Part shown: positions 26,611-38,628 of the stretch, one piece after another
Numbering within the stretch: the first letter of the stretch is position 1
How the letters are laid out: each line of letters starts with the position of its first letter
Virus record (IMG/VR): IMGVR_UViG_3300030117_002217
Coordinates: 1-41,295 of that record
From: a virus
Strand: one strand, 5' to 3'
Length of the DNA: 41,295 nt
Notes under the pieces: model-generated
Databases searched by the model: none
Told to the model about the DNA's origin: nothing
What the model saw: the letters and a program-made list of their open reading frames with translations, nothing else
Translations under genes and position numbers: made by a program

Positions 26611-26662
26611 CCCCTAATTTAGCTTATATGACGATAAAAATAATATTTTGATACAATATATA

Positions 26663-26699
26663 GCTGTGGGGGATAATGCGAAATTACCCCCGTTACAGC
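26663..26699. terminator. G5/C5 hairpin, probable bidirectional terminator
   Basis: GCTGT-GGGGG-(A)-TAAT pairs with ATTA-CCCCC-(GTT)-ACAGC around a GCGAA loop (26663-26677 with 26683-26699). It lies 18 bases after the stop of the minus gene 26717-26941 and about 360 bases after the end of the plus block. Flanks are AT-rich but there is no clean U tract, so the function is inferred. Confidence 0.55.
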
Positions 26700-26716
26700 C
26701 TTTATTCAAGCTTTTT

Positions 26717-26941
26717 CTAAAAAGGGTCGTCATTACTCTTTTTATTGCCGAATTTCTCTGATGGTTCCTTAAAACTCATGTAAAAATACTCATCACCCTT
26801 CTGAGTTTTCTTTCTCCACATAGCGAACTCCATCAAGCTGTCTCCAACCTTACCCTTTCCTGTGAAATCTGGTTGGTTCTCACCGCTTTTCTTTCCGTTA
26901 AAAAATACCGTAGCAGTATTTGGTTTATGTTCAAATGCCAT
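26717..26941 (-). CDS. DUF736-like small protein
   Basis: 74 aa from the ATG at 26941, chosen because AAAGGAG sits six bases upstream; an ORF extends 26 residues further but lacks such a site. The order of elements, a TATVFFNGKK strand, NQPDFTGKG, then FAMWRKKTQKGDEYFYMSF, resembles the DUF736 family of phage and plasmid proteins (the W-K-K...G..Y..  core). A ssDNA- or replication-associated role is possible but unproven. Confidence 0.6.
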   Translation of the reverse strand: MAFEHKPNTATVFFNGKKSGENQPDFTGKGKVGDSLMEFAMWRKKTQKGDEYFYMSFKEPSEKFGNKKSNDDPF

Positions 26942-26967
26942 TCTTGGCTCCTTTCGTTTGTTAATTT

Positions 26968-27052
26968 TTAGCGGGCTACTTTTACGCCACAGATTGTTCA
27001 AAGTCTTAGTTAGCGCCAACCAACTTTTTCTTTTGCTAATCTTTCCCGCTAA
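26968..27052 (-). promoter_or_regulatory. Leader with 8-bp inverted repeat
   Basis: TTAGCGGG (26968-26975) and CCCGCTAA (27045-27052) can pair over a 69-nt interval that includes an imperfect GTTAGCGCCAAC dyad. It spans the gap between the resolvase-like gene and the 74-aa gene, so it may be a structured leader or attenuator. No promoter motif was identified here. Confidence 0.35.
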
Positions 27053-27405
27053 ATCCTTTCTTTAATAAGCGACACTAAGAACAAGTAGTGCTCTAGTGGG
27101 ACCACCATAAATGGTGCGCCTCTATCCTCTCGTATCACCACGCCCACTTCTTCTTTCTCTGGTTTTACCCAAGTCGCAATAGACTTTCTTCTCTTGCATC
27201 CGTAGTAGTTACCTTCAATCTCTATGTCACCCATCTCATGTTGCGCTCCACCTCTGTCTCGATTGAAAGCCTCTAGATTAAATTCTTTAGCTAGATTTAC
27301 TGCTTGCCTTTGTAGCTCTGCTCCTCTTTGACGGTTTCTTTTTCCTCGTCTCTGATTCTCTTTTTTCTTGGTCTTCTTGTAAGTATTTTGTGAATTTTTC
27401 GACAT
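27049..27405 (-). CDS. PDDEXK Holliday-junction-resolvase-like nuclease
   Basis: 118 aa from the ATG at 27405 (GGA 8 bases upstream; an ATG two codons earlier is possible). After a Lys/Arg-rich N-terminus the core reads RQRGAELQRQAVNLAKEF, then RDRGGAQHEMGDIEIEG and CKRRKS, in the order of archaeal-Hjc-like phage nucleases. In the 120-aa numbering D62 and K73 are present, but the residue two before the Lys is Gly (GCK), where the family has Glu. That could impair catalysis or be bypassed by E64/E66. The first 119 bases overlap another gene in a different frame. Confidence 0.65.
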   Translation of the reverse strand: MSKNSQNTYKKTKKKENQRRGKRNRQRGAELQRQAVNLAKEFNLEAFNRDRGGAQHEMGDIEIEGNYYGCKRRKSIATWVKPEKEEVGVVIREDRGAPFMVVPLEHYLFLVSLIKERI

Positions 27406-27541
27406 CGCCATTCCATATTATATAGTTTTCTAATAGTGTTCTTACCATTCGCAATTCTTGCCCTAAGCCATACACTCGCTCAAACAGGTGTGTAATTTGC
27501 TTATCTCTGTCTTTGTTATTGGTCTTGTGTTTGTTCTTCAA
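27287..27541 (-). CDS. Hypothetical helical protein overlapping the nuclease gene
   Basis: 84 aa. Charged helix (residues 10-60, LFERVYGLGQELRMVRTLLE and following) and a Lys/Ser/Arg-rich tail. Its start overlaps the upstream stop by 4 bases (ATGA), which supports a real gene, while its last 119 bases are shared with the nuclease gene in another frame. Function unknown. Confidence 0.6.
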   Translation of the reverse strand: MKNKHKTNNKDRDKQITHLFERVYGLGQELRMVRTLLENYIIWNGDVEKFTKYLQEDQEKRESETRKKKPSKRSRATKASSKSS

Positions 27542-28122
27542 AATATCTCCAACTTAATTTTTTTATCTACTTTTATACAATCTGGACAGATTTTGAAAAG
27601 TGTTTTAGATTGTGAAATATATGCGTAACCACAGTCTCTGCATTTATACTCCCATTCTTTTCTATCATCCTCTGACTCAAATATAAATTTAGGATTTAGT
27701 AGCTCTTCAACTGGTAGCAAGATTAGACTAGAGCTAAAGTTATCTCCACCTTTAATATCTCTTTGTGGGTGTCTCAAGTATTTACGACACATCTTCTTAA
27801 ACACCTCTGTCTTTATAAAGATAGCTACGTTCTCGTTTTGCTTTTCATCTACAAGTACGTATGCAATATACTTAGCTTCTGTAACAGAGATGCCACTTGG
27901 CTTTCCATTATTACTGTACTCTACAGCTATATTCCCTGTGTCCCAAGCTTTATAATCCTTCTTAAACTCTACAGTCTCTAGCATTTCTGCCCATTTATTT
28001 TCGGACAGCTTACCCTCCAAAAGGTTTACATCAAACCGGTAGTCTGCACCTCCCTCGTCTCTTACCTGCTTGGTAATATCTTTTAGCTGTCCTTGATTCA
28101 AGATAACTTTAATCGCTTTCAT
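27538..28122 (-). CDS. PDDEXK-like nuclease with C-terminal zinc ribbon
   Basis: 194 aa. The N-terminal core has D31 (RFDVNLLEG), E41, and VEFK at 51-54 (the ExK), followed by WDTGNIAVEYSNNGKPSG and TEAKYIAYVL, a combination found in small PDDEXK phage nucleases. Residues 161-182 hold CRDC...CPDC, a zinc ribbon. Cleavage of DNA during recombination or host-DNA turnover is plausible. Sits between hypothetical genes in an overlapping early operon (14 bases upstream, 4 downstream). Confidence 0.62.
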   Translation of the reverse strand: MKAIKVILNQGQLKDITKQVRDEGGADYRFDVNLLEGKLSENKWAEMLETVEFKKDYKAWDTGNIAVEYSNNGKPSGISVTEAKYIAYVLVDEKQNENVAIFIKTEVFKKMCRKYLRHPQRDIKGGDNFSSSLILLPVEELLNPKFIFESEDDRKEWEYKCRDCGYAYISQSKTLFKICPDCIKVDKKIKLEIF

Positions 28123-28306
28123 TAGTAGCCAGTGGGTTGGGACTTATTGCTTCTGAAGAACCAGAGCCAGACTCTTTGTACAAGTCTAACTCTACGTTGA
28201 AACCTAATCGTTCTGCTTTTTTCGTTACCCATTCCACAAAATCTCTGACATCCGCATCTGTCATATCATCTGTTGGCTTTATCTTTAGTTTGTTCCAGTG
28301 TATCAA
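28109..28306 (-). CDS. Hypothetical protein, TTG start
   Basis: 65 aa from a TTG at 28306 with AGGAGG seven bases upstream, and a TTGA overlap with the preceding gene's stop. Content is acidic and helical (DMTDADVRDFVEWVTKKAER) with a Ser/Gly tail. Not recognised. Overlaps the following nuclease gene by 14 bases, so it is probably part of the same mRNA. Confidence 0.62.
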   Translation of the reverse strand: MIHWNKLKIKPTDDMTDADVRDFVEWVTKKAERLGFNVELDLYKESGSGSSEAISPNPLATNESD

Positions 28307-28758
28307 AACGGAACCTCCTCTATTTTCTTTTTAAGTATCGCTACTGGATAGCTTACGTTTGTGCCTTCTTTATTTATAAAGTTCTTATAACTTATTGCTA
28401 CCATTACTTCTATGTTATTAAGCATGCTTAACTGCAGGTATGGAAGTGATACTTTACCTCCAGTCTCTTTTTGTATGCCTAAGGTCTGGCAGAACTTTGC
28501 AAAGCCCCAGTTTCGGTTTGGCTTGAATTGATAGCCTTGTGCTTCTTTATATCTAAAGAGACCGCTATCTTTTATCTCTGTTCCTTCGTAATCTGATTGT
28601 ATTATACGATATATTGGTTTGAATACATCAGCTATGAATCCCCCGCAACGCATATCCTTCATAACCTCTATGTCGCATATCATAGCTTTGTATTCACCGG
28701 CGGGAATGCGAGAGCTCGCACTATCCCCAGTTGGTATGTAGTAGGAGTTACCGGACAT
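28303..28758 (-). CDS. Putative ssDNA-binding protein (DUF669-like)
   Basis: 151 aa. The start has RIPAGEYKAMICDIEVMKDM then a GGFIADVFKPIYRIIQSDYEG strand set, and later GFAKFCQTLGI, the arrangement of DUF669-type phage proteins, which are thought to bind ssDNA. Neighbours include three nucleases, which fits a recombination module. I rate the family only by pattern. Its ATG directly abuts the previous stop. Confidence 0.5.
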   Translation of the reverse strand: MSGNSYYIPTGDSASSRIPAGEYKAMICDIEVMKDMRCGGFIADVFKPIYRIIQSDYEGTEIKDSGLFRYKEAQGYQFKPNRNWGFAKFCQTLGIQKETGGKVSLPYLQLSMLNNIEVMVAISYKNFINKEGTNVSYPVAILKKKIEEVPF

Positions 28759-29160
28759 TTACTTATAGGATTTTCTTATCTGTTGCATCTTATCTAAAGA
28801 TGCCTGAAGATTATCCATAGTAATTTTGCCATCAGCTAACGCTTTTAAGACCTTATCTGAATCCTCTTGCTTGAGACCATCCATATCTAAATGAACCATA
28901 GCCTCTACAAACTTCTTGGTCCCCTCCTGTTCTGTCTCTAAGACTTTCTTGCATTGCTCTTTGTCCATGTATGGCTTCTTAACAACCGGTCTATCTGGCG
29001 GACTATCCTCATCCACGCCGTTCATTACATATCCTACAAACGCTTCTATCTTTCCTATCTCAGATGGTTTCAACATCTTACCCTGTTTGTACAATTCGAG
29101 TGCAAACCCATATCGCACCTTGCCTCTATTCACCTTATCCCAATCTACCTCTTGGTCCAT
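28759..29160 (-). CDS. Hypothetical protein upstream of DUF669-like gene
   Basis: 133 aa from the ATG at 29160, chosen because AAGAAAGGG lies about 8 bases upstream; the open frame begins 20 codons earlier inside the preceding gene. N-terminal WDKVNRGKVRYGFALELYKQ with KPSEIGKIEAFVGYVM, then a charged helical C-terminus (KVLKALADGKITMDNLQASL). No family assigned. The 5' end overlaps the Cas4-like gene by 16 bases. Confidence 0.62.
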   Translation of the reverse strand: MDQEVDWDKVNRGKVRYGFALELYKQGKMLKPSEIGKIEAFVGYVMNGVDEDSPPDRPVVKKPYMDKEQCKKVLETEQEGTKKFVEAMVHLDMDGLKQEDSDKVLKALADGKITMDNLQASLDKMQQIRKSYK

Positions 29161-29888
29161 TTGTTTTCCCTTTCTTGTATTCCTTTTATGCCACCACCAC
29201 AAGGCTCGTAAAACGAGCAATATTTAGAGTTACACTCCCAATCCTCTACTGGAGAGAACCCCTTCTCTATCGGTGGTAAGCCGTCCTTAAATAATTCTTC
29301 TACCTTTAGCCAATATCTTTCTGCGATATCAATATACTTTCTTGGTACCTTCAACTCCTTGACACGTGAATTGTTCTTGTTGTAAAAGAGTAGTGCCATT
29401 TTATTTATCTTTATATTGTTTTCACGATAATAAAGCCCATAAGTTCCCAATTGAATTGCATAATTTTGCGGTGCCTCTTTACTTCCGTATCTGCCGAAGA
29501 TGGATTGCCACTTAAAATCGTTACACGTTTTAATATCGTACAATGCACCATCCTTTAGAATCATAGCATCTACGAAGCTGCGTACATTCAATCGTGGAAT
29601 CAAAATCTCTGTCTCAATATGAACCTCGTACCCATTCTTCTTTGCGTATCTTTCTAGTGCCTCTTGCATATCTCCGTGAACCAAGTCACCAAGTCTGAAG
29701 AGTCGCATCGTGTTAGAGTCTTTATCTCCGGTCGGTAGCTTTTCTATCTGTCCATAGTAATGTTTACGCATACACAAACCTGCACCAGAAGCGTGAAACC
29801 ATTCGTCCTTACCATCGTATCTAGCGTCATAGTTCTCGCCCTTGAGGTCCATGATGTAGTCATCGTATATCTTAAAAAGGTCTATCAT
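29145..29888 (-). CDS. Cas4/RecB-family Fe-S exonuclease
   Basis: 247 aa. Four cysteines, C39 (ASGAGLCMRKHYY) and the C-terminal trio C219, C224, C230 (CNSKYCSFYEPC), bracket the nuclease as in Cas4/AddB 4Fe-4S enzymes. The active site is H71 (LGDLVHGDMQ), D107 (FVDAMI), D118-x-K120 (YDIKTC) and Q146...Y150 (QLGTYGLYY). It probably resects DNA ends in phage recombination or replication. Not next to any CRISPR array; none is seen in the window. Start overlaps the histone-like gene by 17 bases. Confidence 0.82.
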   Translation of the reverse strand: MIDLFKIYDDYIMDLKGENYDARYDGKDEWFHASGAGLCMRKHYYGQIEKLPTGDKDSNTMRLFRLGDLVHGDMQEALERYAKKNGYEVHIETEILIPRLNVRSFVDAMILKDGALYDIKTCNDFKWQSIFGRYGSKEAPQNYAIQLGTYGLYYRENNIKINKMALLFYNKNNSRVKELKVPRKYIDIAERYWLKVEELFKDGLPPIEKGFSPVEDWECNSKYCSFYEPCGGGIKGIQERENKWTKR

Positions 29889-30153
29889 CCATGTGTATTA
29901 GCATAGCTTTTATCTCTTCGTCAGATATTTTTTCTATATTACTAGGCTTAACCCTTTTTACTTTCTTGAACTTTGCTCCGATTATCATAGAATCTACTAT
30001 GTATCGTACAAGACGCTCTACAATATTGAGTGCAAGTACATTCACTTGTATGCCCTCATCGTGAAACATTTTTCTAATTGCAGTTTTATTTAACAACATA
30101 ATCTTCCCTAAATAATTGCTGATTCTTCCGGAATTTACACCGTTTCTTGCCAT
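29872..30153 (-). CDS. Histone-fold-like protein (candidate)
   Basis: 93 aa from ATG 30153. After a short basic N-terminus come an alpha1-like KTAIRKMFHDEG, loop IQVN, a long alpha2-like helix NIVERLVRYIVDSMIIGAKF, then KRVKPSNIEKI, the same order as the archaeal-histone loop-2 signature (K-T-V-K-A-E-D-I). The match is about four residues shorter than HMf between alpha1 and loop 2. If right, it would coat phage or host DNA. Alternatives: an unrelated helical DNA-binding protein. Sits between a coiled-coil gene and the Cas4-like nuclease. Confidence 0.6.
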   Translation of the reverse strand: MARNGVNSGRISNYLGKIMLLNKTAIRKMFHDEGIQVNVLALNIVERLVRYIVDSMIIGAKFKKVKRVKPSNIEKISDEEIKAMLIHMDDRPF

Positions 30154-30155
30154 AT

Positions 30156-30386
30156 TCAAGCAGAAATGTCATTTTGTTTATCGTCTGCCCACTTATCTAG
30201 CTCGTTCAATTCATCACGAACATGGTCAGTTATGATGCTTAGTCCCTTGTAAAGACCTGCTAAGTACATCGTATTTTCTGCGTACTGTAATGTGCTGTTT
30301 TTCAATAACAATTTCTTGTTAGCCTCCCGTATCCTTTTTATTTCGGCTTGTATCTGTTCTATAATCTTGTCGTAATTCGCTAACAC
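30156..30386 (-). CDS. Coiled-coil hypothetical protein, GTG start
   Basis: 76 aa from a GTG at 30386 with AAAGG about 9 bases upstream. Helical throughout, with a charged coil (IEQIQAEIKRIREANKKLLL). No family. Its end lies next to the histone-like start, so the two may be translated together. Confidence 0.6.
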   Translation of the reverse strand: MLANYDKIIEQIQAEIKRIREANKKLLLKNSTLQYAENTMYLAGLYKGLSIITDHVRDELNELDKWADDKQNDISA

Positions 30387-30397
30387 TATTAACCTTT

Positions 30398-30505
30398 CTA
30401 TATTATCTTACCGATAATGATTCCTATTATCATTCCTAAAATAAATTCTTTGTTACGTTTACATTCATACACAAATAGTAAACATAAGTCTTTAACTATG
30501 CCCAT
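30398..30505 (-). CDS. 35-aa membrane peptide
   Basis: 35 codons. The start follows the preceding stop by one base (TAAGATG). Cys-containing N-terminus, charged centre (YECKRNKEF), and a hydrophobic C-terminal helix with GxxxG-like spacing (LGMIIGIIIGKII). Could be a small membrane effector. It is supported by tight spacing rather than homology. Confidence 0.45.
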   Translation of the reverse strand: MGIVKDLCLLFVYECKRNKEFILGMIIGIIIGKII

Positions 30506-30506
30506 C

Positions 30507-30917
30507 TTATTTTGTTCCCTTCTTTTTTGTTTTTTTCTGTAGGTCGCTAATATAATTATCTGTTAGCTTGAAGAAGTCACGTGACTCCTTGTCAAAGCCT
30601 TCCCCTTCTTCTTTTCGTTCCTTTATCAACGCACCTAGTAGTAAACAATAATTACGTATATCCCTGAGTCTGCCTTCTATTGGTTCGTTAGATGCTTCCG
30701 TACCCTGTAATACGTAGTTCCTTACACTATCCATGTGCTTTAGTAAATACACCATCGCTACAAACTCCGGTTTACATTTCAGTCTTTCTCCGATTGATTT
30801 GAAGTTGGCAAGCTTGTCATCATCTGATACAGTGTACTCGATTCCCTTCTTCTCCATCAGGTCTAGCTCTACCTTTGATTCGTTCCTTGCCCACTTGAAA
30901 AAATCCTTTACTAGCAT
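30507..30917 (-). CDS. MazG/DUF1599-like nucleotide-processing protein
   Basis: 136 aa from the ATG at 30917, chosen for the AAGAAAGGG site; the frame runs 52 codons further upstream through a structured non-coding leader. Residues 25-60 read KKGIEYTVSDDDKLANFKSI and later a KHMDSVRNYV and GRLRDIRNYCLLLGALIKE, the pattern of DUF1599/Nmad1, related to all-alpha NTP pyrophosphatases. It may hydrolyse or sense nucleotides. The family call is by pattern only. Confidence 0.6.
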   Translation of the reverse strand: MLVKDFFKWARNESKVELDLMEKKGIEYTVSDDDKLANFKSIGERLKCKPEFVAMVYLLKHMDSVRNYVLQGTEASNEPIEGRLRDIRNYCLLLGALIKERKEEGEGFDKESRDFFKLTDNYISDLQKKTKKKGTK

Positions 30918-30954
30918 ATTATCCCTTTCTTGTTTATAAATCTTAAATCGAGAG

Positions 30955-31057
30955 GGGGGAGGTGCGTGATTAAAATACCTCCCCCGCTTTATCGCAGTGC
31001 TTACCAAAGGGAAATAAAGAGGAAGCGATGAACTGACTTCCCGAAAAAAACCTTTGG
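30955..31057 (-). promoter_or_regulatory. Two-hairpin leader upstream of MazG-like gene
   Basis: A perfect 9-bp stem (30955-30963 with 30977-30985) with 13-nt loop, and further upstream on the minus strand a nested pair: outer CCAAAGG/CCTTTGG (31004-31010, 31051-31057) and inner GGAAG/CTTCC (31021-31025, 31037-31041). Both lie between the stop of the zinc-ribbon gene and the start at 30917. Could act as terminator plus leader or as a small RNA. Confidence 0.5.
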
Positions 31058-31072
31058 CAATACAAACGTGCA

Positions 31073-31267
31073 CTACGATATTAATCTTTCTGTTTCTGCT
31101 ACGATAGCTGAGTAAACGTCATCTGGCTGCACCGTAAAGCCTTCGCACTCTGTATTCTCGCAGCCCATTCCTAAATCTGATTGGTCTCCAGAATCTCCGA
31201 ACTCCCACCAAACCAAAGTCTCATCACACTCTGGACATTGTACTGCTGTCTTGTCTCCACCTATCAT
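31073..31267 (-). CDS. Zinc-ribbon protein
   Basis: 64 aa. C11, C14 and C36, C41 flank an acidic loop with WWEFGDSGDQ. ATGA overlap with the upstream gene. Small zinc ribbons like this are common early phage proteins with unknown targets. Confidence 0.65.
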   Translation of the reverse strand: MIGGDKTAVQCPECDETLVWWEFGDSGDQSDLGMGCENTECEGFTVQPDDVYSAIVAETERLIS

Positions 31268-31560
31268 AACTCACCTATATACCTTTCTGCTACTCTTTGT
31301 AAATGCTCATGCAAGTTACTAGCAATTGCGTTGTTAATTTCTATCAACTCTCCGTACTTATAATTCTCTGGTACATTGTTCATCAACCACTTTGCCCTAT
31401 CGCCTATCTTTACTAATCTGTCTGCATCTTGTGGTATTACTTCACTTACAATCTTCTCAATGCCACGCTGTCTAAATCTAAAATCTTTTAAAGCCACTTT
31501 GTGTTTATCCATCTCTGCTTTCATTAGTCTTTCTAAGTATCTAACGCTGTTCTTGTTCAT
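31264..31560 (-). CDS. Hypothetical basic helical protein
   Basis: 98 aa, not recognised. Charged helices (RYLERLMKAEMDKHKVALKD; AIASNLHEHLQRVAERYI). AAGGA lies about 6 bases before the ATG. The leader contains the 106-nt structured element at 31580-31685 behind a TGGAAC-N18 promoter, so this gene may be controlled by that RNA. Confidence 0.65.
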   Translation of the reverse strand: MNKNSVRYLERLMKAEMDKHKVALKDFRFRQRGIEKIVSEVIPQDADRLVKIGDRAKWLMNNVPENYKYGELIEINNAIASNLHEHLQRVAERYIGEL

Positions 31561-31763
31561 GCTTTTGTCCTTAAATTTAAGAGCCTCCGTTGTTTGGTCT
31601 CTTGCCTTAGTGCACCTTCAGGCAAGACCTCAGTTTTCTCTGAAGGGTCCAGACTGCCCAACACACATCTGAATACAGAGGCTCTCGTTAAAAGGGTATC
31701 AAGATAGGTTTCTAACACCCTGACAATTTCTGTCCTACTTTCACTTTCAATAATGATACCCAT
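31557..31763 (-). CDS. Doubtful 68-aa frame over a structured RNA
   Basis: An open frame with an ATGA overlap to the next gene, but its ATG sits at or before the expected transcription start of the promoter at 31768-31797, has no clear ribosome site, and most of it is covered by a compensating set of stems at 31580-31685. It may be leaderless or not a gene. Confidence 0.25.
   Translation of the reverse strand: MGIIIESESRTEIVRVLETYLDTLLTRASVFRCVLGSLDPSEKTEVLPEGALRQETKQRRLLNLRTKA
31580..31685 (-). ncRNA. Structured RNA / leader candidate
   Basis: An 8-bp P1 (31580-31587 with 31678-31685) encloses three hairpins: GGTC+TTGCC with GGCAA+GACC (31596-31606, 31621-31629, 9 bp with a 2-nt bulge), TCAG/CTGA (31630-31633, 31640-31643) and CAGA/TCTG (31650-31653, 31668-31671). 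It lies between a TGGAAC-N18 promoter and the gene starting at 31560, whose AAGGA site follows P1 closely. I do not recognise a riboswitch family; it is not a tRNA (no T-arm signature). Confidence 0.5.
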
Positions 31764-31767
31764 ACTC

Positions 31768-31797
31768 TTATAACTATTTACCTACTAATAAGTTCCA
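31768..31797 (-). promoter_or_regulatory. Early promoter F (TGGAAC-N18-TTATAA)
   Basis: On the minus strand, TGGAAC (31792-31797) and TTATAA (31768-31773) are 18 bases apart. One of eight such sites. The predicted start near 31761 places the structured element 31580-31685 in the 5' leader. Confidence 0.6.
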
Positions 31798-31815
31798 TTC
31801 TTTTATTAGCTTTTA

Positions 31816-32034
31816 CTATGCGACCTCATCTGAACGTAGCCATTCTAACATACCATCATACCTATCGAGTATTACTTGCTCTACGCAAACTTCAACTTTA
31901 TCTTTATAGTCCGAAGTCCATAGCTTACGCACGTGAAAACCTTGACCTTCTTTCATATACTCTATCCAATTAATCACATCTTGTTTGTTTTCAATAACAA
32001 ACTTTTTGTCTTTGTTTTCTTTTAATTGTTTCAT
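31816..32034 (-). CDS. Hypothetical protein
   Basis: 72 aa, starting after AAGGAAATAAG. Contains VIENKQDVINWIEYMKEGQG and an acidic Trp-bearing C-terminus (DGMLEWLRSDEVA). No family. It lies downstream of the weaker promoter at 32080-32110. Confidence 0.68.
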   Translation of the reverse strand: MKQLKENKDKKFVIENKQDVINWIEYMKEGQGFHVRKLWTSDYKDKVEVCVEQVILDRYDGMLEWLRSDEVA

Positions 32035-32079
32035 CTTATTTCCTTTTTTTATTTTAGTATTTTAGCTTCACGCTTTCTT

Positions 32080-32110
32080 CTTAAACGCACAAGGTTTCAA
32101 AAAGTTCCCA
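32080..32110 (-). promoter_or_regulatory. Early promoter E (GGGAAC-N19-TTTAAG, weaker)
   Basis: GGGAAC (32105-32110) precedes TTTAAG (32080-32085) by 19 bases, one more than the others, and the -10 is poor. It lies 46 bases upstream of the start at 32034. Confidence 0.4.
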
Positions 32111-32120
32111 AATATTTTTT

Positions 32121-32199
32121 TAGGGTATAAACTGATTGTTGTGATTTGTGAAATTAACTTCAAGTAATCAATACTACTTTAGTTGTGTTCATACCCTAA
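32121..32199. repeat. 9-bp inverted repeat in intergenic region
   Basis: TTAGGGTAT (32121-32129) and ATACCCTAA (32191-32199) are perfect inverse copies 61 bases apart, in the 170-bp gap between genes ending at 32205 and starting at 32034. Could be a stem of a terminator/leader or a protein site. Confidence 0.45.
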
Positions 32200-32204
32200 T
32201 TATA

Positions 32205-32465
32205 TTACAGAATCTCAGCAAAGCATGGAGTATGAGGACCAACGTAGGAACCAGCCACATTATAGTAAAAGTGCTCATACGCATCTTCCTCTGATATCTC
32301 ATGCTCTTCCATTAGTATCTCAATACATTTGTTCTTGTCATACAGAACTACTGCTTCGTGTCCGTGCCTCTCTACGATTCCCAAGATAGCATCTCCAAAT
32401 CCGTTTGCTACCATACAATCTGGGTAGTTCTCTGCAATAAAAGTTTTCTTATCTTCCGCATTCAT
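32205..32465 (-). CDS. Conserved hypothetical phage protein
   Basis: 86 aa. Contains VANGFGDAILGIVERHGHEAV, YDKNKCIEILMEEHEISEED and YNVAGSYVGPHTPCF, a combination I have seen in hypothetical proteins of marine phages. No role known. Its start overlaps the end of the HNH gene by 17 bases. Confidence 0.7.
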   Translation of the reverse strand: MNAEDKKTFIAENYPDCMVANGFGDAILGIVERHGHEAVVLYDKNKCIEILMEEHEISEEDAYEHFYYNVAGSYVGPHTPCFAEIL

Positions 32466-32934
32466 TTATAAAGTCCTCTATTTTTCTTTCCATACATATC
32501 TGATAAAACATTCTGTTAGTTTCCTTTGCTGTTTTTATTTGGTGGCAATTCGCACATAACACCCTGCACTTCTTTGCCTCTTTCTCTAACTCTTCAATCG
32601 TTACTTTGTTCCGAAAAAGATTTGCCATGTTATCTGTCTTGATATATTTGCTCTTATGGTCGAACTGCAAAGCCAATGGATTACTCTCGCCACATACTAC
32701 GCACTGCCTATCTAATAAATAATCGTACTTCCACTCGTATCTTTCACGTAAACCAAGGTTATATTCATCAATTTTCTTCTTCCATTTATATCGCTTATTT
32801 CGAGCTAAAATCTTTTCTTTAGCACCAAGTACCAAATGATAATTAATCGTTGATTTAGAGCATCTCAAGAGCTTAGAAATGGCATTGTAGCTATATCCCT
32901 CGCCCCGTAGTTGATGTATCTTTTCACGTAGCAT
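32449..32934 (-). CDS. HNH endonuclease with N-terminal helix-turn-helix
   Basis: 161 aa. Residues 5-34 look like a resolvase-type HTH (GEGYSYNAISKLLRCSKSTI). The HNH core is C78-x2-C81, D92-H93, and C127-x2-C130-H131 (CANCHQIKT), zinc-stabilised. Such free-standing genes behave as homing endonucleases. There is a 95-bp gap upstream; no intron or intein was seen nearby, so it may have inserted between early operons. Confidence 0.8.
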   Translation of the reverse strand: MLREKIHQLRGEGYSYNAISKLLRCSKSTINYHLVLGAKEKILARNKRYKWKKKIDEYNLGLRERYEWKYDYLLDRQCVVCGESNPLALQFDHKSKYIKTDNMANLFRNKVTIEELEKEAKKCRVLCANCHQIKTAKETNRMFYQICMERKIEDFINECGR

Positions 32935-33029
32935 TTATATTTCCTAATATGCGGGTATCATGTACCATAATATAAATAGTGGCATGACAAAATGTCCAAT
33001 ACAATAATACGACTTTCTAAAAGTTAACA

Positions 33030-33437
33030 TTATAACTCCTCGTAGTCCATCCATATCATAGAATCTGGATTGATTATAGCCTCTGACTCTTGTCTGGTAT
33101 TTGTGAAGTACAATATGTTCTCCTTATCTATCTCGCCTTTCATAATGTAGGGCGTACCTCCTAATCTACTGAATCGTAGGGCGAACATCTTTGCCACCTC
33201 CTCATTGGTTGTCCATGACGCCCCGAGCTGTGTGTCAAACTTCTCCTTCGCTAGTATGCCTCTGTAAAGCATGACCTCATCGGGAAGCTTGTCGTACATC
33301 TCTTGCGACTCTTCGTCTGTCTTTTGCTCTACCTCGCTGAAGAAGTTCATCACGACATCCCAACTCTTGAATATGTTCAAGGGAAACTCTGCGTCAACGT
33401 AGGCATCTATCCCCTTCTGTGCTAGTTCTCTGTTCAT
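33030..33437 (-). CDS. ADP-ribosyltransferase-like protein (R-S-E type)
   Basis: 135 aa from the ATG at 33437, with AAAGGA ten bases upstream; an upstream reading of 51 more codons crosses the promoter and is rejected. Key residues fit the Arg-specific ART fold: R59 (LYRG), S74-W75-T76 (ASWTTNEEVAKMFA) and E117-x-E119 (RQESEAII). Host-directed ADP-ribosylation by early phage proteins is known from T4 Alt and ModA/ModB. The call is from motif order only. Promoter H is 21 bases upstream. Confidence 0.65.
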   Translation of the reverse strand: MNRELAQKGIDAYVDAEFPLNIFKSWDVVMNFFSEVEQKTDEESQEMYDKLPDEVMLYRGILAKEKFDTQLGASWTTNEEVAKMFALRFSRLGGTPYIMKGEIDKENILYFTNTRQESEAIINPDSMIWMDYEEL

Positions 33438-33457
33438 CTGTTGTCCTTTCTTTTCTT

Positions 33458-33487
33458 CTTTAACTCGGGAATACCTTAAAGGTTCCC
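33458..33487 (-). promoter_or_regulatory. Early promoter H (GGGAAC-N18-TTAAAG) overlapping a hairpin
   Basis: GGGAAC (33482-33487) and TTAAAG (33458-33463) are 18 bases apart, directly upstream of the ART-like gene. The spacer also forms a hairpin (33465-33475 with 33481-33490), so the site could alternatively be a terminator after the upstream gene. Confidence 0.45.
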
Positions 33488-33495
33488 CGATTTTT

Positions 33496-33876
33496 TTACA
33501 ACTCCGAATTAACATTGCAATAATCCTCGCCACTCTCCTTGAAGTGCCGTTGAACTTCCTTACCAAAGCAGTAGTCTGCGTAGTCCTCAACGTCTTGACT
33601 TACTGACTCCAATTTGTAGCCCTCGATATGCTTAGACATATATTTGTGTAACTTCTCATTGTTATAGTAAGGCTCTTCCTTAAAGAACTTTTCTAGAATC
33701 GGTAGCCTATCTCCTAAGTCATTCTCTATACACTCCATTCTGTCCTTGAACGTATCATCGTTGGATATTGTGTAATCTATATGTGTTTCATAACCTCCGA
33801 ACTTTTCTGGAGTATCTGAGGATTGTACGCCAAACCACCATTTACCCTCTACATCTCCATTGTAGAATCTGCCCAT
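33496..33876 (-). CDS. Conserved hypothetical protein (MGRxYNGDxEGK family)
   Basis: 126 aa. The N-terminal MGRFYNGDVEGKWWFGVQSS is a recognisable conserved start shared by hypothetical proteins of large DNA viruses and phages. The C-terminus has QDVEDYADYCFGKEVQRHF. GAGGTGAAC, part of the repeated junction, serves as ribosome site. No known function. Confidence 0.75.
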   Translation of the reverse strand: MGRFYNGDVEGKWWFGVQSSDTPEKFGGYETHIDYTISNDDTFKDRMECIENDLGDRLPILEKFFKEEPYYNNEKLHKYMSKHIEGYKLESVSQDVEDYADYCFGKEVQRHFKESGEDYCNVNSEL

Positions 33877-34040
33877 TAGTTCACCTCACTTCTTCTTTTA
33901 AAGTCAGTCTCATGCCATGTTTCAAGACCCCATGTTTTTGTGTCTACAATCCAATAGCCATCAGCTCTTGATTCAATTAACTCTGCCTCGAATCCATCAT
34001 CAGCTATAACAATATCTCCTGTTTGATAATCTCTGTTCAT
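33876..34040 (-). CDS. 54-aa small beta protein (cassette 2)
   Basis: 54 codons, TAATG overlaps on both ends. Starts YQTGDIVIADDGFEAE, an SH3-like beta start, with a Trp-rich middle (DGYWIVDTKTWGLETW) and ends RRSEVN. Comparable in layout to the 61-aa neighbour (KGDIAILFAYERHGE). Function unknown. Confidence 0.65.
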   Translation of the reverse strand: MNRDYQTGDIVIADDGFEAELIESRADGYWIVDTKTWGLETWHETDFKRRSEVN

Positions 34041-34225
34041 TAGTTCACCTCGCTTTCTTTTACAATCCTATCTTTACTATGCAATGCTAATTCATATTTT
34101 TTTCCACTCCTTGCAAACTTACCCGTAAAACAAGTTTCATCATCTTTGTTTTTAAAAACTCTATCTACAGTAAACTCACCATGTCTCTCATAGGCAAATA
34201 GTATTGCAATATCACCTTTTTTCAT
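34040..34225 (-). CDS. 61-aa small beta protein (cassette 3)
   Basis: 61 aa, ends KESEVN. Starts MKKGDIAILFAYERHGEFTV with VFKNKDDETCFTGKF. A GDI-type beta start like cassette 2, so the two may be diverged duplicates. TAATG coupling to both neighbours. No family assigned. Confidence 0.65.
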   Translation of the reverse strand: MKKGDIAILFAYERHGEFTVDRVFKNKDDETCFTGKFARSGKKYELALHSKDRIVKESEVN

Positions 34226-34401
34226 TACTTGACCTCGCTTTCTATAAAAGCTCTAATTTCTGTATTGTTCCCAACAGTTTCTACCTCAATAACATCTACA
34301 TACCAACCCAATCTATCTTCTTCTTCATAGTCAATTGAAATTTGAGCATTGTTATCTTGTGGACAATTTTTCAAATATTCTATTAATTCTCTTATAGTCA
34401 T
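34225..34401 (-). CDS. 58-aa conserved small protein (cassette 4)
   Basis: 58 codons. MTIRELIEYLKNCPQDNNAQ, then ISIDYEEEDRLGWYVDVIEV, ends IESEVK. The MTIxELIxxL...P.DA pattern is common in small phage proteins without known role. Preceded by promoter C, whose predicted start is about 17 bases upstream, and by the fourth repeated junction. Confidence 0.65.
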   Translation of the reverse strand: MTIRELIEYLKNCPQDNNAQISIDYEEEDRLGWYVDVIEVETVGNNTEIRAFIESEVK

Positions 34402-34425
34402 TAGTTCATCTCGCTTTCTTTATTT

Positions 34426-34455
34426 ATTATACGCTTAAGTTTTATATTAGTTCCA
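34426..34455 (-). promoter_or_regulatory. Early promoter C (TGGAAC-N18-TATAAT)
   Basis: TGGAAC (34450-34455) and TATAAT (34426-34431), spaced by 18 bases on the minus strand, overlap the end of the 34447-34776 gene and precede the gene starting at 34401. Confidence 0.65.
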
Positions 34456-34776
34456 AGAATATTCATATTTATCTAATATTCTCTCGGGAAATATCTCCCC
34501 CTCGTTGTCAATCGCATCCTCCCACCAACTCATTCCCTCAAACTTCAATCTGAACATCGTAAACTTCTGAATGTCCTTGCCGTGTACATAGAAGAGTACA
34601 TCCTTGCGTCCACCTTCTCCTCCATTACCTGCCAATGTTTCAAACTCTGTTGCATATTTCACAGTAAAGCCTTCATCGTGAAAGAACCTTTCAAAGTCCT
34701 CTATGTTCTCTTCTCCAACTATGGTCCCTCTCCAAATTACTAACTGCTTGTAGTCTTTGTCTGTTGTGTCGTTCAT
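34447..34776 (-). CDS. Conserved hypothetical phage protein
   Basis: 109 aa, starting after AAGAAAGGGATAAG. QLVIWRGTIVGEENIEDFER, then VKYATEFETLAGNGGEGGRK, DVLFYVHGKDIQKF and SWWEDAIDNE. A family of unknown function seen in several phages has this layout (W.G..VG...F..F, DVLFYVH). No catalytic motif recognised. Confidence 0.72.
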   Translation of the reverse strand: MNDTTDKDYKQLVIWRGTIVGEENIEDFERFFHDEGFTVKYATEFETLAGNGGEGGRKDVLFYVHGKDIQKFTMFRLKFEGMSWWEDAIDNEGEIFPERILDKYEYSWN

Positions 34777-34790
34777 CTTATCCCTTTCTT

Positions 34791-35033
34791 TTATTTTATG
34801 GTGTTTAATTCTTTTTCCCAGAAAGAATCTTGTTCTATTTTTTTGATTGGATGTCCGTAAAAATGTGAGTCGAAATATTCCCCTAGTTCATACATATTCC
34901 AATCTTTTTTAGTACGCATCCAGCTTTGCAATAATGTTTCGATAAATTTTTGTCGCTCTTCATCGTCCATTTCATAAGCTACAAATCTAGATAGCACATA
35001 CATAAACCAATCTTTACTTATTTTTGTGTTCAT
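34791..35033 (-). CDS. Hypothetical protein after structured RNA
   Basis: 80 aa with AAGGAAAAAAG before the ATG. Trp/Tyr-rich acidic helical protein (DWFMYVLSRFVAYEMDDEER). It is the first gene after the 187-nt RNA candidate; if transcribed from promoter B its mRNA would carry that RNA as a 5' leader. Confidence 0.68.
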   Translation of the reverse strand: MNTKISKDWFMYVLSRFVAYEMDDEERQKFIETLLQSWMRTKKDWNMYELGEYFDSHFYGHPIKKIEQDSFWEKELNTIK

Positions 35034-35068
35034 CTTTTTTCCTTTGTTTTTGTTTTACAAATCTTCTA

Positions 35069-35255
35069 GGACGGGCAAAGATTGAATCGATTAAACCATT
35101 TCCTGTTCATCGTTCCCTTACGGGCAATCATCTTTCACGGGCTTAAGTTTAATGAGCGTCCCCCCTTCTTAGGTTCTTCCCACAGATAGTAAACTCTATC
35201 TTCACTCGTGTTGTACCGAATCGACCCAGTAGGCTGTCGGTATCACACCCGTCCC
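35069..35255 (-). ncRNA. Multi-helix structured RNA candidate with possible pseudoknot
   Basis: P1: 7 bp (35069-35075 with 35248-35254). P2: 35209-35211/35245-35247 plus 35214-35219/35237-35242 with a symmetric 2x2 loop. P3: 35154-35158/35203-35207. P3a: 35184-35189/35196-35201. P4: 35090-35096/35147-35153. P5: CCC/GGG closing a GUAA tetraloop in minus RNA (35115-35124). A further helix 35077-35084 with 35125-35135 interleaves with P4 as a pseudoknot. P3 has a U-G pair only in minus RNA. No credible ORF. Promoter B ends about 22 bases upstream. Family unknown to me; RNase P, tmRNA and tRNA do not fit. Confidence 0.62.
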
Positions 35256-35276
35256 AATTTTTAAATATCTTTTTCT

Positions 35277-35306
35277 TTTATACGCATCAATTGTTAATTA
35301 GTTCCC
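35277..35306 (-). promoter_or_regulatory. Early promoter B (GGGAAC-N18-TATAAA)
   Basis: GGGAAC (35301-35306) and TATAAA (35277-35282), 18 bases apart. Predicted transcription start near 35270, about 15 bases before the structured RNA at 35255-35069. Shares a TAACAATT block in the spacer with promoter A. Confidence 0.68.
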
Positions 35307-35308
35307 AA

Positions 35309-35488
35309 TTATTTTATTATTTTATATTCTGATTTATTTAATAGAATATCTCCACAAAATACCAAGCCCTTCTTTTTGTAATCTGGTTGGTTGTCAGCAA
35401 TCACTGCATTGTACACTTTATTTTTATCTAGTTTAATCACGGGGTAAGTCCCTAGTAATTTGTAATTTTCTTTTGGTTGTATTTTCAT
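35309..35488 (-). CDS. 59-aa hypothetical protein
   Basis: 59 codons. IQPKENYKLLGTYPVIKLDK, then VYNAVIADNQPDYKKKGLVF and a beta C-terminus (CGDILLNKSEYKII). Small beta-rich (possibly SH3-like) protein with an AAGAAAGAT sequence about 10 bases upstream. Function unknown. Confidence 0.6.
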   Translation of the reverse strand: MKIQPKENYKLLGTYPVIKLDKNKVYNAVIADNQPDYKKKGLVFCGDILLNKSEYKIIK

Positions 35489-35533
35489 AGTTCATCTTTC
35501 TTTCTGTAGTTTATTTTTATTTCACAATCTTTA

Positions 35534-35881
35534 TTATATTTCCTTCTCTAGTTCCAAGACCATCATCGCCATAAAATCCCAGTAGTTTTCTATAATACGC
35601 TCTTCTTGTCTTTCTGTTAGTTCATTGTCCACTGAGCCCATATCTTTAGCAAGCTGTAATATATCCTGATTGTAGAATGGAATATTGATTGCTAAACCCG
35701 ATAGCCACTCTGAAATAGCTTTCTGCCTCCCTAATCTCTCTACAAGGTGTCCGTATTCTGAGTCAATCCTATTTGATAAGTGCTTTATTTTCTGCTCTCT
35801 GTTCATCCCGTCAACATCATTTAAGGAACCTAAGATTAAGTTCTTGTAGTTCTTTTTATATTTAGTGTGATGTAATTTCAT
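35534..35881 (-). CDS. Conserved hypothetical phage protein
   Basis: 115 aa. AGGAAATAAA before the ATG. Contains LGRQKAISEWLSGLAINIPF, YNQDILQLAKDMGS and ENYWDFMAMMVLELE, a pattern of a common unannotated phage protein. Promoter A lies 22 bases upstream. Confidence 0.72.
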   Translation of the reverse strand: MKLHHTKYKKNYKNLILGSLNDVDGMNREQKIKHLSNRIDSEYGHLVERLGRQKAISEWLSGLAINIPFYNQDILQLAKDMGSVDNELTERQEERIIENYWDFMAMMVLELEKEI

Positions 35882-35902
35882 TTTATTTCCTCTCGTTTTT
35901 AT

Positions 35903-35932
35903 TTTATACGTTTTAATTGTTAATAAGTTCCA
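35903..35932 (-). promoter_or_regulatory. Early promoter A (TGGAAC-N18-TATAAA)
   Basis: TGGAAC (35927-35932) and TATAAA (35903-35908), 18 bases apart, upstream of the 35881 start. Immediately upstream, the 20-base run ATAAATAAAATAATTTGTTT (plus strand, 35939-35958) recurs at 36519-36538 beside promoter D. Confidence 0.7.
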
Positions 35933-36122
35933 TCCAAGATAAATAAAATAATTTGTTTATTTTTTTATTGCAATTATTACATTGTGTGTCCTCGTCTATT
36001 TCGTGGCACCCATTCCATCCTTCGTAGTTGTCGCCACTTTTTACCTCGTGGCAGTAATCTGAACAATAATAATTAGCATCAATTATATCATTGTTTTTAT
36101 CTGTTATGTATTCTATATGCAT
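35913..36122 (-). CDS. Cys/His-rich zinc-binding protein
   Basis: 69 aa. C20, C24-H25, C39-H40, C48, C51 (YCSDYCHE, GWNGCHE, CNNC) form two likely metal sites. Its 3' end overlaps promoter A. A small early zinc protein of unknown target. Confidence 0.7.
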   Translation of the reverse strand: MHIEYITDKNNDIIDANYYCSDYCHEVKSGDNYEGWNGCHEIDEDTQCNNCNKKINKLFYLSWMELINN

Positions 36123-36160
36123 TGTATAACCTCTTTTGTATTATGTAATCTAAATTTATA

Positions 36161-36190
36161 GGGGGCTAAGGAAAGGAAACCCTAACCCCC
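36161..36190 (-). terminator. G5/C5 hairpin after 36197-36460 gene
   Basis: An 11-position stem (36161-36171 with 36180-36190) with two mismatches closes an 8-nt loop, seven bases past the stop of the minus gene at 36197. No long U tract. Terminator or attenuator. Confidence 0.5.
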
Positions 36191-36196
36191 TTACCC

Positions 36197-36460
36197 TTAT
36201 AAAAATAAATTCTTATCTATTCTTGTAGTGTAAAATCTATTGAAGTTTAGAGCGTTTAAGACTCTAATTGATTTACCCTTGTTAGTTTCTATTATCACAC
36301 TATAGCCCATGCTTTCTTTAAATATATTAAATATTGTTTTACCTGCTTGTTTGTTTGCATCTCTAAGAGCTTTTAACATTTTCTGGAGTTCTCTTTTTGG
36401 TAGCATTCGCACGTTCATATTTTTGGAATCAGTAAATTTTATTTTATTTAATTGTTTCAT
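36197..36460 (-). CDS. Hypothetical basic protein
   Basis: 87 aa from the ATG at 36460, chosen because AAAGG lies about 9 bases upstream and because the frame above it crosses promoter D. Basic, with RELQKMLKALRDANKQAGKT (helical) and YSVIIETNKGKSIRVL (strand). No family recognised. Confidence 0.65.
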   Translation of the reverse strand: MKQLNKIKFTDSKNMNVRMLPKRELQKMLKALRDANKQAGKTIFNIFKESMGYSVIIETNKGKSIRVLNALNFNRFYTTRIDKNLFL

Positions 36461-36486
36461 ATTGTAACCTTTTATTTTATTTGTAT

Positions 36487-36516
36487 TGTATACAAGAGAT
36501 ATAAAAAAAAGTTCCA
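36487..36516 (-). promoter_or_regulatory. Early promoter D (TGGAAC-N18-TATACA)
   Basis: TGGAAC (36511-36516) and TATACA (36487-36492), 18 bases apart, upstream of the 36460 start. Confidence 0.65.
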
Positions 36517-36570
36517 AAATAAATAAAATAATTTGTTTGTCGGGGGGAAGTTCGGGTATCTTATTTCTGC

Positions 36571-36641
36571 TAATATTAATATATTATAATATTAATACTA
36601 ATATATATAATATAAATAAAAGATATAATATTAATATATTA
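36571..36641. repeat. AT-rich dyad block with repeated 16-mer
   Basis: The 16-mer TAATATTAATATATTA occurs at 36571-36586 and 36626-36641 and again at 38550-38565. The block (36565-36650) is almost pure A/T with many short palindromes, bounded by CGGGGGG and GCCCCC. No gene between 36461 and 36834. Candidate DNA-unwinding element. Confidence 0.7.
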
Positions 36642-36675
36642 CCTATTGCCCCCTATATTGTACAATCTGCCTAGC

Positions 36676-36804
36676 TACGTGAATTATATTAATAAAATAG
36701 TAGTTACGTGAATATTCTATAATAAAAATAGATTTTACAATGCATTTAGTCTTTACGTGAATTTTTTATTTTAAAATATTTTTCTGTTTACTAATTACGT
36801 GAAT
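36676..36804 (+). repeat. Iteron-like array, four copies of TACGTGAAT
   Basis: Exact TACGTGAAT at 36676, 36705, 36754 and 36796, same orientation, starts 29, 49 and 42 bases apart, in a non-coding gap next to the AT-rich block. A partial inverse copy (CGTGAATATTC on the minus strand) is at 38124-38134. Candidate initiator-binding sites of an origin. Confidence 0.7.
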
Positions 36805-36834
36805 GGATTATATAAAATATTTAAAAAAGAAAAA

Positions 36835-36852
36835 CCCCCGATTTCTCGGGGG
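36835..36852 (-). terminator. Intrinsic terminator
   Basis: CCCCCGA/TCGGGGG 7-bp stem with a 4-nt loop; on the minus strand it is followed by TTTTTCTTTTTT. Located 11 bases past the stop of the 36863 gene, the cleanest rho-independent terminator in the window. Confidence 0.85.
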
Positions 36853-36862
36853 CTGTCCTTAT

Positions 36863-37066
36863 CTAGTCTTGAGTCTGATATTCATAACTTTCTTCTAGCA
36901 TCTTAAATATCAGTTCTCTAAGATTTGCATTTTTTATCCAGTTCATCCTGTGAAACTTACCATTTTTAGTCATTTCAACTATTTTTATGGTATTGGTTAC
37001 AGAAGACATAACATACTCTATAATATAGACTTCATTGTCCATTTCGATAGTTTGTGTAAGGGTCAT
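36863..37066 (-). CDS. Hypothetical small protein
   Basis: 67 aa from the ATG at 37066 (GAAGAGAATAAA upstream); the frame upstream overlaps the DUF932 gene and is not favoured. EMDNEVYIIEYVMSSVTNTI and KFHRMNWIKNANLRELIFKM. Unknown role; lies downstream of the DUF932-like gene in the same transcript. Confidence 0.65.
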   Translation of the reverse strand: MTLTQTIEMDNEVYIIEYVMSSVTNTIKIVEMTKNGKFHRMNWIKNANLRELIFKMLEESYEYQTQD

Positions 37067-37083
37067 TTTATTCTCTTCTTTCT

Positions 37084-37101
37084 GGGGGGCTTGCGCCCCC
37101 C
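37084..37101 (-). promoter_or_regulatory. G6/C6 hairpin between DUF932 gene and 67-aa gene
   Basis: GGGGGGC/GCCCCCC 7-bp stem with TTGC loop, 15 bases after the DUF932 stop. No U tract, so it is more likely an mRNA-processing or stabilising structure than a full stop. Confidence 0.55.
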
Positions 37102-37115
37102 GTAGTTTGGTTATA

Positions 37116-38081
37116 TTATGAAACGTAGGCTTTTTCTCCAAAGTCAAGCATACCATCCACAAAGTGAGCATTATTGTCAAATACAGCCTTGGTTATCTTA
37201 TCCTTATGCCATAAGGTATTAGTACCCGCTTGCATAAGGTCCCATAGGCGTCCATCCTTGTATTCAGGCTTATTGTGAAACTTGTCTAAGATTTCACCAT
37301 AACGCAAGGCTGGTAGCTTATTGATATGGTTTTTCCTGATGTCTGTCAGAGCTTCCATAGTCAAAGGAGCTTGTAGCTTACCGCAAGCATTTGCAAAGCT
37401 GTCCAGTCTTCTGATAAGACCCTCACCCCTAAGAGTGGCGGTAGCTGTCAGAATCTCTTGTTGCCAGTCAACATTGGACATAGTGTGAGCAAATGATTTG
37501 CCAATACCGTGCCTAGCTGACAGCATACCATTCTTGCAGACTTGAATCATAAAGTCAATACGCCAGCCAGCTGGTGAGCTTTGGTCATAGCTGTTAATCT
37601 CAGTAAATATCAAGTATGCAACATCACCATTATTGAGCTCTCGTTGAATAGATTGAGTTCTAAAGACATTCTTGTATCGTTTACCGTCAAAAAATATCCT
37701 GTCATGTTCCCAGTCTAAACCAGATTCATCTCTAATAATATTACATTTGTCATTAATAGCTTGATTCTTGATTAACAAATATTTAGGACTAACAATGCCA
37801 GCCTCTAAATATTGTCCAGTATCTCTTTTAACTCTCACGTTACGGGCACCACTTTGAAAGCCGTCCGCATTCTCTAAAGGTAGGACATCAATCTCACAAA
37901 ATGGGTCAAATGTACCGCCGTTAACATTTTGTGGAATATCAACAGAATCTAAAACAACAGCCTCATTTGTAATATTTGCTGGTTTTACGATTGGTTGAAC
38001 TGGTATAATACCGTTAGATTGTGAAATACCGTTAGATTGTGCACCGTTCATCATTTGTGCGTATTCATCATATTGGTTCAT
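37116..38081 (-). CDS. DUF932-like protein
   Basis: 321 aa. LEAGIVSPKYLLIKNQAIND, RIDFMIQVCKNGMLSARHG and GKLQAPLTMEALTDIRKNHI follow the order of DUF932 proteins carried by phages and plasmids (function unknown, often near replication genes). Strong AAAGGAGG six bases before the ATG, after a structured leader. The first gene of the minus arm, so probably an early protein. It lies between the two AT-rich blocks, which makes it a possible origin-binding or replication protein; that is inference only. Confidence 0.72.
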   Translation of the reverse strand: MNQYDEYAQMMNGAQSNGISQSNGIIPVQPIVKPANITNEAVVLDSVDIPQNVNGGTFDPFCEIDVLPLENADGFQSGARNVRVKRDTGQYLEAGIVSPKYLLIKNQAINDKCNIIRDESGLDWEHDRIFFDGKRYKNVFRTQSIQRELNNGDVAYLIFTEINSYDQSSPAGWRIDFMIQVCKNGMLSARHGIGKSFAHTMSNVDWQQEILTATATLRGEGLIRRLDSFANACGKLQAPLTMEALTDIRKNHINKLPALRYGEILDKFHNKPEYKDGRLWDLMQAGTNTLWHKDKITKAVFDNNAHFVDGMLDFGEKAYVS

Positions 38082-38132
38082 TTTGAACCTCCTTTATTGA
38101 TTGTTAAGGGAAAGTGATTGAGAGAATATTCA

Positions 38133-38213
38133 CGGGTTGCATTCGAGAGACTTAGACCCGCTAACGCCCTCCACACGCTGACAGGCAATGGTGTGGTAGA
38201 TTCACCGAGGGCG
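38133..38213 (-). promoter_or_regulatory. Structured 5' leader of DUF932-like gene
   Basis: Outer stem CGCCCTC/GAGGGCG (38165-38171, 38207-38213), coaxial inner CACAC/GTGTG (38172-38176, 3891-38195 region, i.e. 38191-38195), and a separate CGGGT/ACCCG hairpin (38133-38137, 38156-38160). It lies between promoter G (start about 38233) and the ATG at 38081. Might be a ligand or protein sensing leader. No known riboswitch recognised. Confidence 0.55.
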
Positions 38214-38239
38214 AGAAAAACATTTTCAAAGAACTGTAC

Positions 38240-38269
38240 TGTATATGATTGACGGGCTAAAAGGTTCCA
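38240..38269 (-). promoter_or_regulatory. Early promoter G (TGGAAC-N18-TATACA)
   Basis: TGGAAC (38264-38269) and TATACA (38240-38245), 18 bases apart. Predicted start near 38233; leader hairpins begin about 20 bases later. Confidence 0.65.
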
Positions 38270-38592
38270 TCTTTTTTAAACTTTTTTTCTAGCTACGTTT
38301 ATATTGTGAAATATTCAACCTAGTATGAAATGGGTCCAGATTTCTCAACCTAACTTTTTTTCAACGGAAAGGGAACGGGGGGTGCCGTGTGCATAAAAAA
38401 AGAAAGACACACATAGTAAAATATTTTTTTTGGATTTTTTTTGAGATTTAGGTTGGATTGCCTGCGGCGGTAAAATGCGGTAATATATTAAAATATTATA
38501 ATATTAACTATCTATCTAATATTAATAATATTATTTAATATTAATAATATAATATTAATATATTAATATATTATTGTTCCTCTCAACCAACA

Positions 38593-38628
38593 GTTGAAAT
38601 TTATAGTAAAAACACTATACCTGTCAAC
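38593..38628. promoter_or_regulatory. Symmetric 36-bp dyad, putative operator
   Basis: GTTGA-N4-TATAGT-N6-ACTATA-N4-TCAAC, exactly symmetric about 38610/38611, with 22 of 36 bases in paired arms. It lies 15 bases before the first possible start of the plus-strand (late) block. The sequence is AT-rich, so it looks like a dimeric-repressor or activator site rather than a terminator. Confidence 0.6.

Follow-up and report, generated by a model that had tools for sequence, protein, structure and literature searches.

Phages usually start transcription with the primary sigma factor of the host, or bring a polymerase or sigma factor of their own. Repeated phage promoters with a -35 element that is not of the sigma-70 type are exemplified by the middle promoters of T4, which combine a MotA box with TATAAT. 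Among the promoters read by ECF sigma factors, those of the SigW type contain CGTA at -10 after a spacer of 16 nucleotides, and sigma-E has -10 elements of the TCTGA/TCAAA type. The -35 element of RpoE (sigma-E, Gammaproteobacteria) is GGAACTT (PMC8103513), and EcfG, which governs the general stress response in Alphaproteobacteria, recognises GGAAC-N16-CGTT with the -10 variants TGTT and CATT (PMC7083833). In phages, the ECF sigma factor gp36 of phiEco32 recognises tAATGTATAtA (PMC4281155), and phage ECF promoters have been described as having no recognisable -35 element (PMC5333181).

The window, by which we mean the whole stretch of 41,295 nucleotides analysed here, is a 41.3 kb record of an uncultured virus (G000). 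The large terminase is found at both ends, which makes the map a circular or circularly permuted one. The late genes, which are located on the plus strand and include the terminase, portal (phrog_156), capsid (phrog_1328), tail fibre and an M15-type endolysin (phrog_465), face an early gene block on the minus strand (Table 1); the endolysin implies a peptidoglycan-bearing bacterial host. The capsid and terminase proteins were only about 22-28% identical to those of cultured phages, the portal protein had no match among cultured phages, and scans of genome contigs for a host with the portal and terminase gave no match. Scanning the window for tRNAs and Rfam families also gave no match. The relatives are IMG/VR metagenome records, which we take to be largely marine. 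One 75-amino-acid early protein (29875-30099, minus strand) has a predicted histone fold (AlphaFold model with pLDDT 82), and its best Foldseek matches were archaeal and bacterial histones (8bdk, Bdellovibrio HBb, Leptospira HLp) with probabilities of 0.97-1.0 and a TM of about 0.6-0.77 to HBb, although no E-value was <0.001. Homologues of this protein are present in L095, L210, L133 and L147, and 'phage histones' have been described (PMC11390915).

An initial annotation had listed eight minus-strand sites consisting of GGAAC, 18 bases and a TATA-like element, all of which are present. The aligned sites share the block GGAAC-N16-[CAT][GA]T[AT][TA]A, and a better register is GGAAC(TT)-N16-[C/A][G/A]T[A/T]TAA, in which the -10 element is better read as CGTATAA. 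In this register, the copy at 32080, previously set apart as a weaker outlier with a spacer of 19, reads GGAAC-N16-CGTTTAAG and has the same spacing as the rest. It is also the most widely conserved copy in the phage family, in the form GGAACTTTTTGAAAC..TG-CGTATAA. Its counterparts in L230, L235, L238, L240 and L242-L244 are conserved over approximately 60 bp (32060-32110 in the window), including AAGTAAGCACGAAGCTTAAAA downstream of the start, which suggests a putative additional element in the 5' leader of this promoter.

Two selections were made that each left part of the motif free. The first required GGAAC-N18-T and a downstream start with a Shine-Dalgarno sequence and ATG, with the other -10 bases free, and yielded 41 non-redundant sites from 19 records. 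The imposed T was directly preceded by G in 34/41 sites and C was found one position earlier in 23/41, while the position of the final T in the sigma-70 element was T in just 8/41 and is not conserved. The second selection required [CA]GTATA and a downstream start and left the -35 region free; here, GGAAC was located exactly 16 nucleotides upstream in 28 of 41 non-redundant sites and AAC in 30 of 41. The earlier view that the -35 element is ECF-like and not sigma-70-like was thereby recovered from the -10 side. The -35 element is GGAACTT, usually with an A/T-rich stretch before it, and the -10 element begins with CGTT or AGTT in a minority of the sites, CGTA being commoner. The sites thus combine the near-invariant AAC at -35 and the short CGT-type -10 element at about N16 that mark ECF promoters, and have neither the TTGACA nor the TATAAT with a conserved final T of sigma-70 promoters. 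Reading the -10 element as CGTATAA at N16 therefore strengthens the ECF interpretation.

Compared with the described systems, the sites share the -35 element, the N16 spacer and the CGT core with EcfG promoters, and the variation tolerated there has parallels here, with A in place of G (CATT in EcfG, CATA in the phage) and T in place of C (TGTT and TGTA). They differ from EcfG promoters in having mostly A as the fourth -10 base, with TAA after it, and in being located on a phage. GGAACTT is common to RpoE promoters and the phage sites, whereas the -10 element CGTATAA differs from the sigma-E type. The AAC core at -35 and the CGTA at -10 after N16 are shared with promoters of Bacillus SigW and similar ECF factors, the full -35 element being ATTGAAACCTTT for SigW and GGAAC in the phage. 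The middle and late promoters of phiEco32 belong to an ECF-type phage class and have GTATA in the -10 element, as do the sites described here; however, phiEco32 encodes its sigma factor, while the present family has a strong -35 element and no recognised sigma gene. Unlike in T4, no activator was recognised and the -10 element is not TATAAT.

Table 1. Positions in the window of the early gene block, the promoters assigned to it from their sequence and a structured leader RNA.
Feature	Position	Strand	Remarks
Sigma-70-type promoter TTGACA-N18-TAAATT	38598..38627	-	Head of early block; single, conserved
ECF-type promoter GGAAC-N16-CATATACA	38240..38268	-	Upstream of leader (about 38100-38235) and phrog_1221 gene 37116-38081
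ECF-type promoter GGAAC-N16-TGTATACA	36487..36515	-	Upstream of ORF 36197-36460
ECF-type promoter GGAAC-N16-CGTATAAA	35903..35931	-	-10 T to ATG of ORF 35534-35881, 27 nt; AGGA Shine-Dalgarno
ECF-type promoter GGAAC-N16-CGTATAAA	35277..35305	-	Upstream of leader (about 35060-35250) and ORF 34791-35033
ECF-type promoter GGAAC-N16-CGTATAAT	34426..34454	-	Promoter kept, downstream gene varies among relatives
ECF-type promoter GGAAC-N16-AGTTAAAG	33458..33486	-	ATG of MNRELAQKG... 26 nt downstream; CGTTAAAG in G004
ECF-type promoter GGAAC-N16-CGTTTAAG	32080..32108	-	'N19' site of the initial annotation
ECF-type promoter GGAAC-N16-AGTTATAA	31768..31796	-	Upstream of structured leader RNA
Structured leader RNA	31575..31700	-	Downstream of 31796 promoter, upstream of ORF 31264-31560; multibranch
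Early gene block	26302..38081	-	SSB-like, RusA-like, Cas4-like nuclease, HNH and phrog_1221 genes with numerous small ORFs; probably driven by the promoters above

The motif is strongly enriched over chance. The search pattern of the initial annotation has four copies on the minus strand (38269, 36516, 35932 and 35306), as compared to 0.06 expected from dinucleotide shuffles of the whole window and 0.05 from shuffles of the early block, and it has none on the plus strand, in agreement with what had been proposed. GGAAC-N18-TATA was found in five minus-strand copies where 0.13 were expected, and GGAAC-N(k)-xGT[TA]TA occurred five times at k=16 and 0 or 1 times at each other k from 8 to 29. In a motif-blind count of all gapped words of 5+4 bases, GGAAC-N18-TATA ranked first in G004 and second in the window; in the pooled count it came second to a word that belongs to a separate repeat array. 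An array in G011 that dominates the motif-blind word count resembles a set of TTACGTGAAT repeats located about 50-60 bp apart at 36670-36810 in the window, which are possibly iterons or protein-binding sites. Further GGAAC-N16-xGT matches in the window (30518, 29447, 32612 and 17510) fall within coding sequence or at its edge, and chance probably accounts for them. Many isolated matches to the pattern, found in further viral contigs (L139, L154, L132, L115 and others), were rejected as coding coincidences in a conserved protein motif.

The fixed spacing, which the initial annotation had framed as 6+18+6, is kept across the phage family as GGAAC-N16-CGTATAA. It was observed in close relatives, in G011 (portal 84% identical), in G004, where the phrog_1221 protein is just 44% identical, and in L161, L133, L147, L156 and L125, five records with G+C contents from 31 to 44% in which identity drops to 32-50% for part of the proteins. 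The 38240..38268 site is found as the same site in L003-L010 and as a diverged copy in L161 and L124. Ten pooled family records contained 48 early-strand matches at N16, 20 at N18 and about 0-11 at other spacings, with 2 matches on the opposite strand, although 7 of the 10 had been fetched by the motif and, of the fetching sites that were to be excluded, that of L161 was not filtered out. The clean test of conservation is therefore provided by 18 relatives picked by a protein and hence blind to the motif, which contained 24 early-strand sites and 0 on the other strand, with 3.7 expected. N16 is the enriched spacing both in the window and in the motif-blind relatives. All contigs with many sites belong to one phage family, and GGAAC sites were absent from the five distant cultured phages searched, three of which infect alphaproteobacteria.

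The sites had been placed in gaps ahead of minus-strand genes, which is correct for most of them, while at 34454 and 35931 the -35 element extends into the final codons of the preceding gene. Start codons typically lie 25-51 nt beyond the -10 T and have an AGGA or AAGG Shine-Dalgarno sequence; the sites that depart from this are mostly located before leaders (38268, 35305 and 31796). Downstream of the 31768 site, an ATG at 31763 follows after only 5 nt; the corresponding ORF (31557-31763) overlaps the start of the structured leader RNA and is probably not a gene. This leader (31575-31700) folds much better than shuffled sequences (z = -3.9) and had no match in Rfam, whereas folding of the leaders at 38100-38235 and 35050-35195 was no better than for shuffles. 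At the 34426-34454 site, a near-identical promoter is followed by different genes in the close relatives L002, L004, L006 and L010, which suggests that promoters are the points at which early cassettes are exchanged.

A single promoter of the sigma-70 type is located at the head of the early block. TTGACA-N18-TA[AT]3T was found once apiece in 11 family records, with TTGCCA in the G011 copy; it is oriented toward the early genes and stands at the head of the block in every record where the position could be checked. A scan for generic sigma-70 promoters in the region did not rise above chance (51 versus 46.9). Because this promoter reads into the early genes, the GGAAC class is not the sole early promoter, and its designation as the early promoter class needs to be amended accordingly. 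Judging from this arrangement, the GGAAC sites may represent a second or parallel wave. Downstream of the TTGACA promoter, the non-coding sequence up to the first GGAAC site (38320-38560) is conserved in the family and contains an AT-rich ATATTAATAT tract and a GTGTGTCTTTCTTTT...GCACAC..CACCCCCCG block; it is a candidate origin or leader.

Which factor reads the sites was approached through the sigma genes of the phages. Sigma70 region 2 (PF04542) was absent from all 16 family records searched, and PHROG scans of the early proteins revealed no sigma factor and no promoter activator. Hits to sigma region 4 (PF08281) in the window's group fall in the N-terminal HTH of the HNH endonuclease and were rejected as sigma factors; the G011 hit was above the family cut-off, and the same ORF also matches the HNH gene. 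The sequences themselves show the fixed layout, the bias in strand and position, the conservation and the lack of a recognised sigma gene. We infer that the sites initiate transcription and act early and, as the phages yielded no recognisable sigma factor, that a host ECF sigma factor reads them. On balance, we somewhat favour the interpretation that they are repeated ECF (group 4) promoters for which a host ECF factor is the likeliest reader, beside one sigma-70 promoter, and the earlier proposal of one particular host sigma factor is plausible. The observations against a host ECF reader are that the TATAA part exceeds what an EcfG promoter needs, that the five distant cultured phages, three of them phages of alphaproteobacteria, have no such sites, and that the contigs with many sites all fall within one phage family.

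This confinement would also fit a reader encoded by the phages, with which the motif tracks, and such a reader is an appreciably less probable alternative. It would be either a very diverged ECF-like sigma factor, comparable to gp36 of phiEco32, or else, comparable to MotA of T4, an activator that takes the place of the -35 contact. Its gene would be expressed first, from the TTGACA promoter, in which case the GGAAC sites would be middle promoters. The single sigma-70-type promoter at the block head agrees with this order of events, the phiEco32 site tAATGTATAtA (PMC4281155) is close to CGTATAA, and some early proteins are conserved in the family with no assigned function, the family-conserved ones including those of ORFs 30156-30386, 28759-29160 and 28109-28306. 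The profile and PHROG searches, which found no phage-encoded ECF sigma factor of the phiEco32 type, speak against it, although a very diverged sigma factor could escape the profiles. Furthermore, the -35 element, which ECF promoters of phages are described as not having in recognisable form (PMC5333181), is the strongest element here.

It is unlikely that the sites are read by the primary sigma factor of a host lineage with a -35 preference other than TTGACA and a TATAAt-like -10 element at 18 bp. The -10 element does contain TATAA, and the 6+18+6 framing is near the sigma-70 geometry; yet conservation in the first selection falls on the CG before TATA and not on the final T of TATAAT. The same phages also carry the conserved canonical TTGACA element, so that the host primary sigma factor probably uses TTGACA. 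Still less likely is a repeated DNA or RNA signal other than a promoter, such as a recombination junction, an antitermination signal or a protein-binding site: the 34454 promoter is kept while the downstream gene changes and so behaves as an exchange point, but two elements at one fixed spacing, with no complementarity, on one strand and 25-51 nt before a Shine-Dalgarno sequence and ATG have the anatomy of promoters. An archaeal TATA box was rejected, as a start approximately 26 nt downstream would leave the Shine-Dalgarno sequence of sites 25-31 nt from the ATG untranscribed, and also because of the peptidoglycan-targeting endolysin.

Under the favoured host ECF interpretation, the GGAAC sites would be bipartite promoters with a spacer of exactly 16 nt and the -10 element [C/A][G/A]T[A/T]TAA. 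RNA would start a few bases downstream, giving short mRNAs led by a Shine-Dalgarno sequence or leader RNAs, and each copy would drive a single early gene or a small cassette. The reader would be a host ECF sigma factor, for example an EcfG- or RpoE-like stress sigma factor, and the block would in addition be served at its head by one ordinary sigma-70 promoter. We found no report of ECF-dependent early phage promoters in the open-access literature, which is weak evidence of novelty.

With the motif as a sequence signature, leader RNAs and early operons can be located in marine phages that have not been cultured. The motif also restricts the host to bacteria possessing an ECF sigma factor of GGAAC/CGT specificity. 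ECF-type promoters throughout a family in which no sigma gene was recognised suggest reliance on a stress sigma factor of the host. Tentatively, this abundant, podovirus-like marine family could have placed most of its early genes, cassette by cassette, under ECF promoters that a host stress sigma factor reads, so that infection would be linked to the host's stress response, whether envelope or general, or would set it off.
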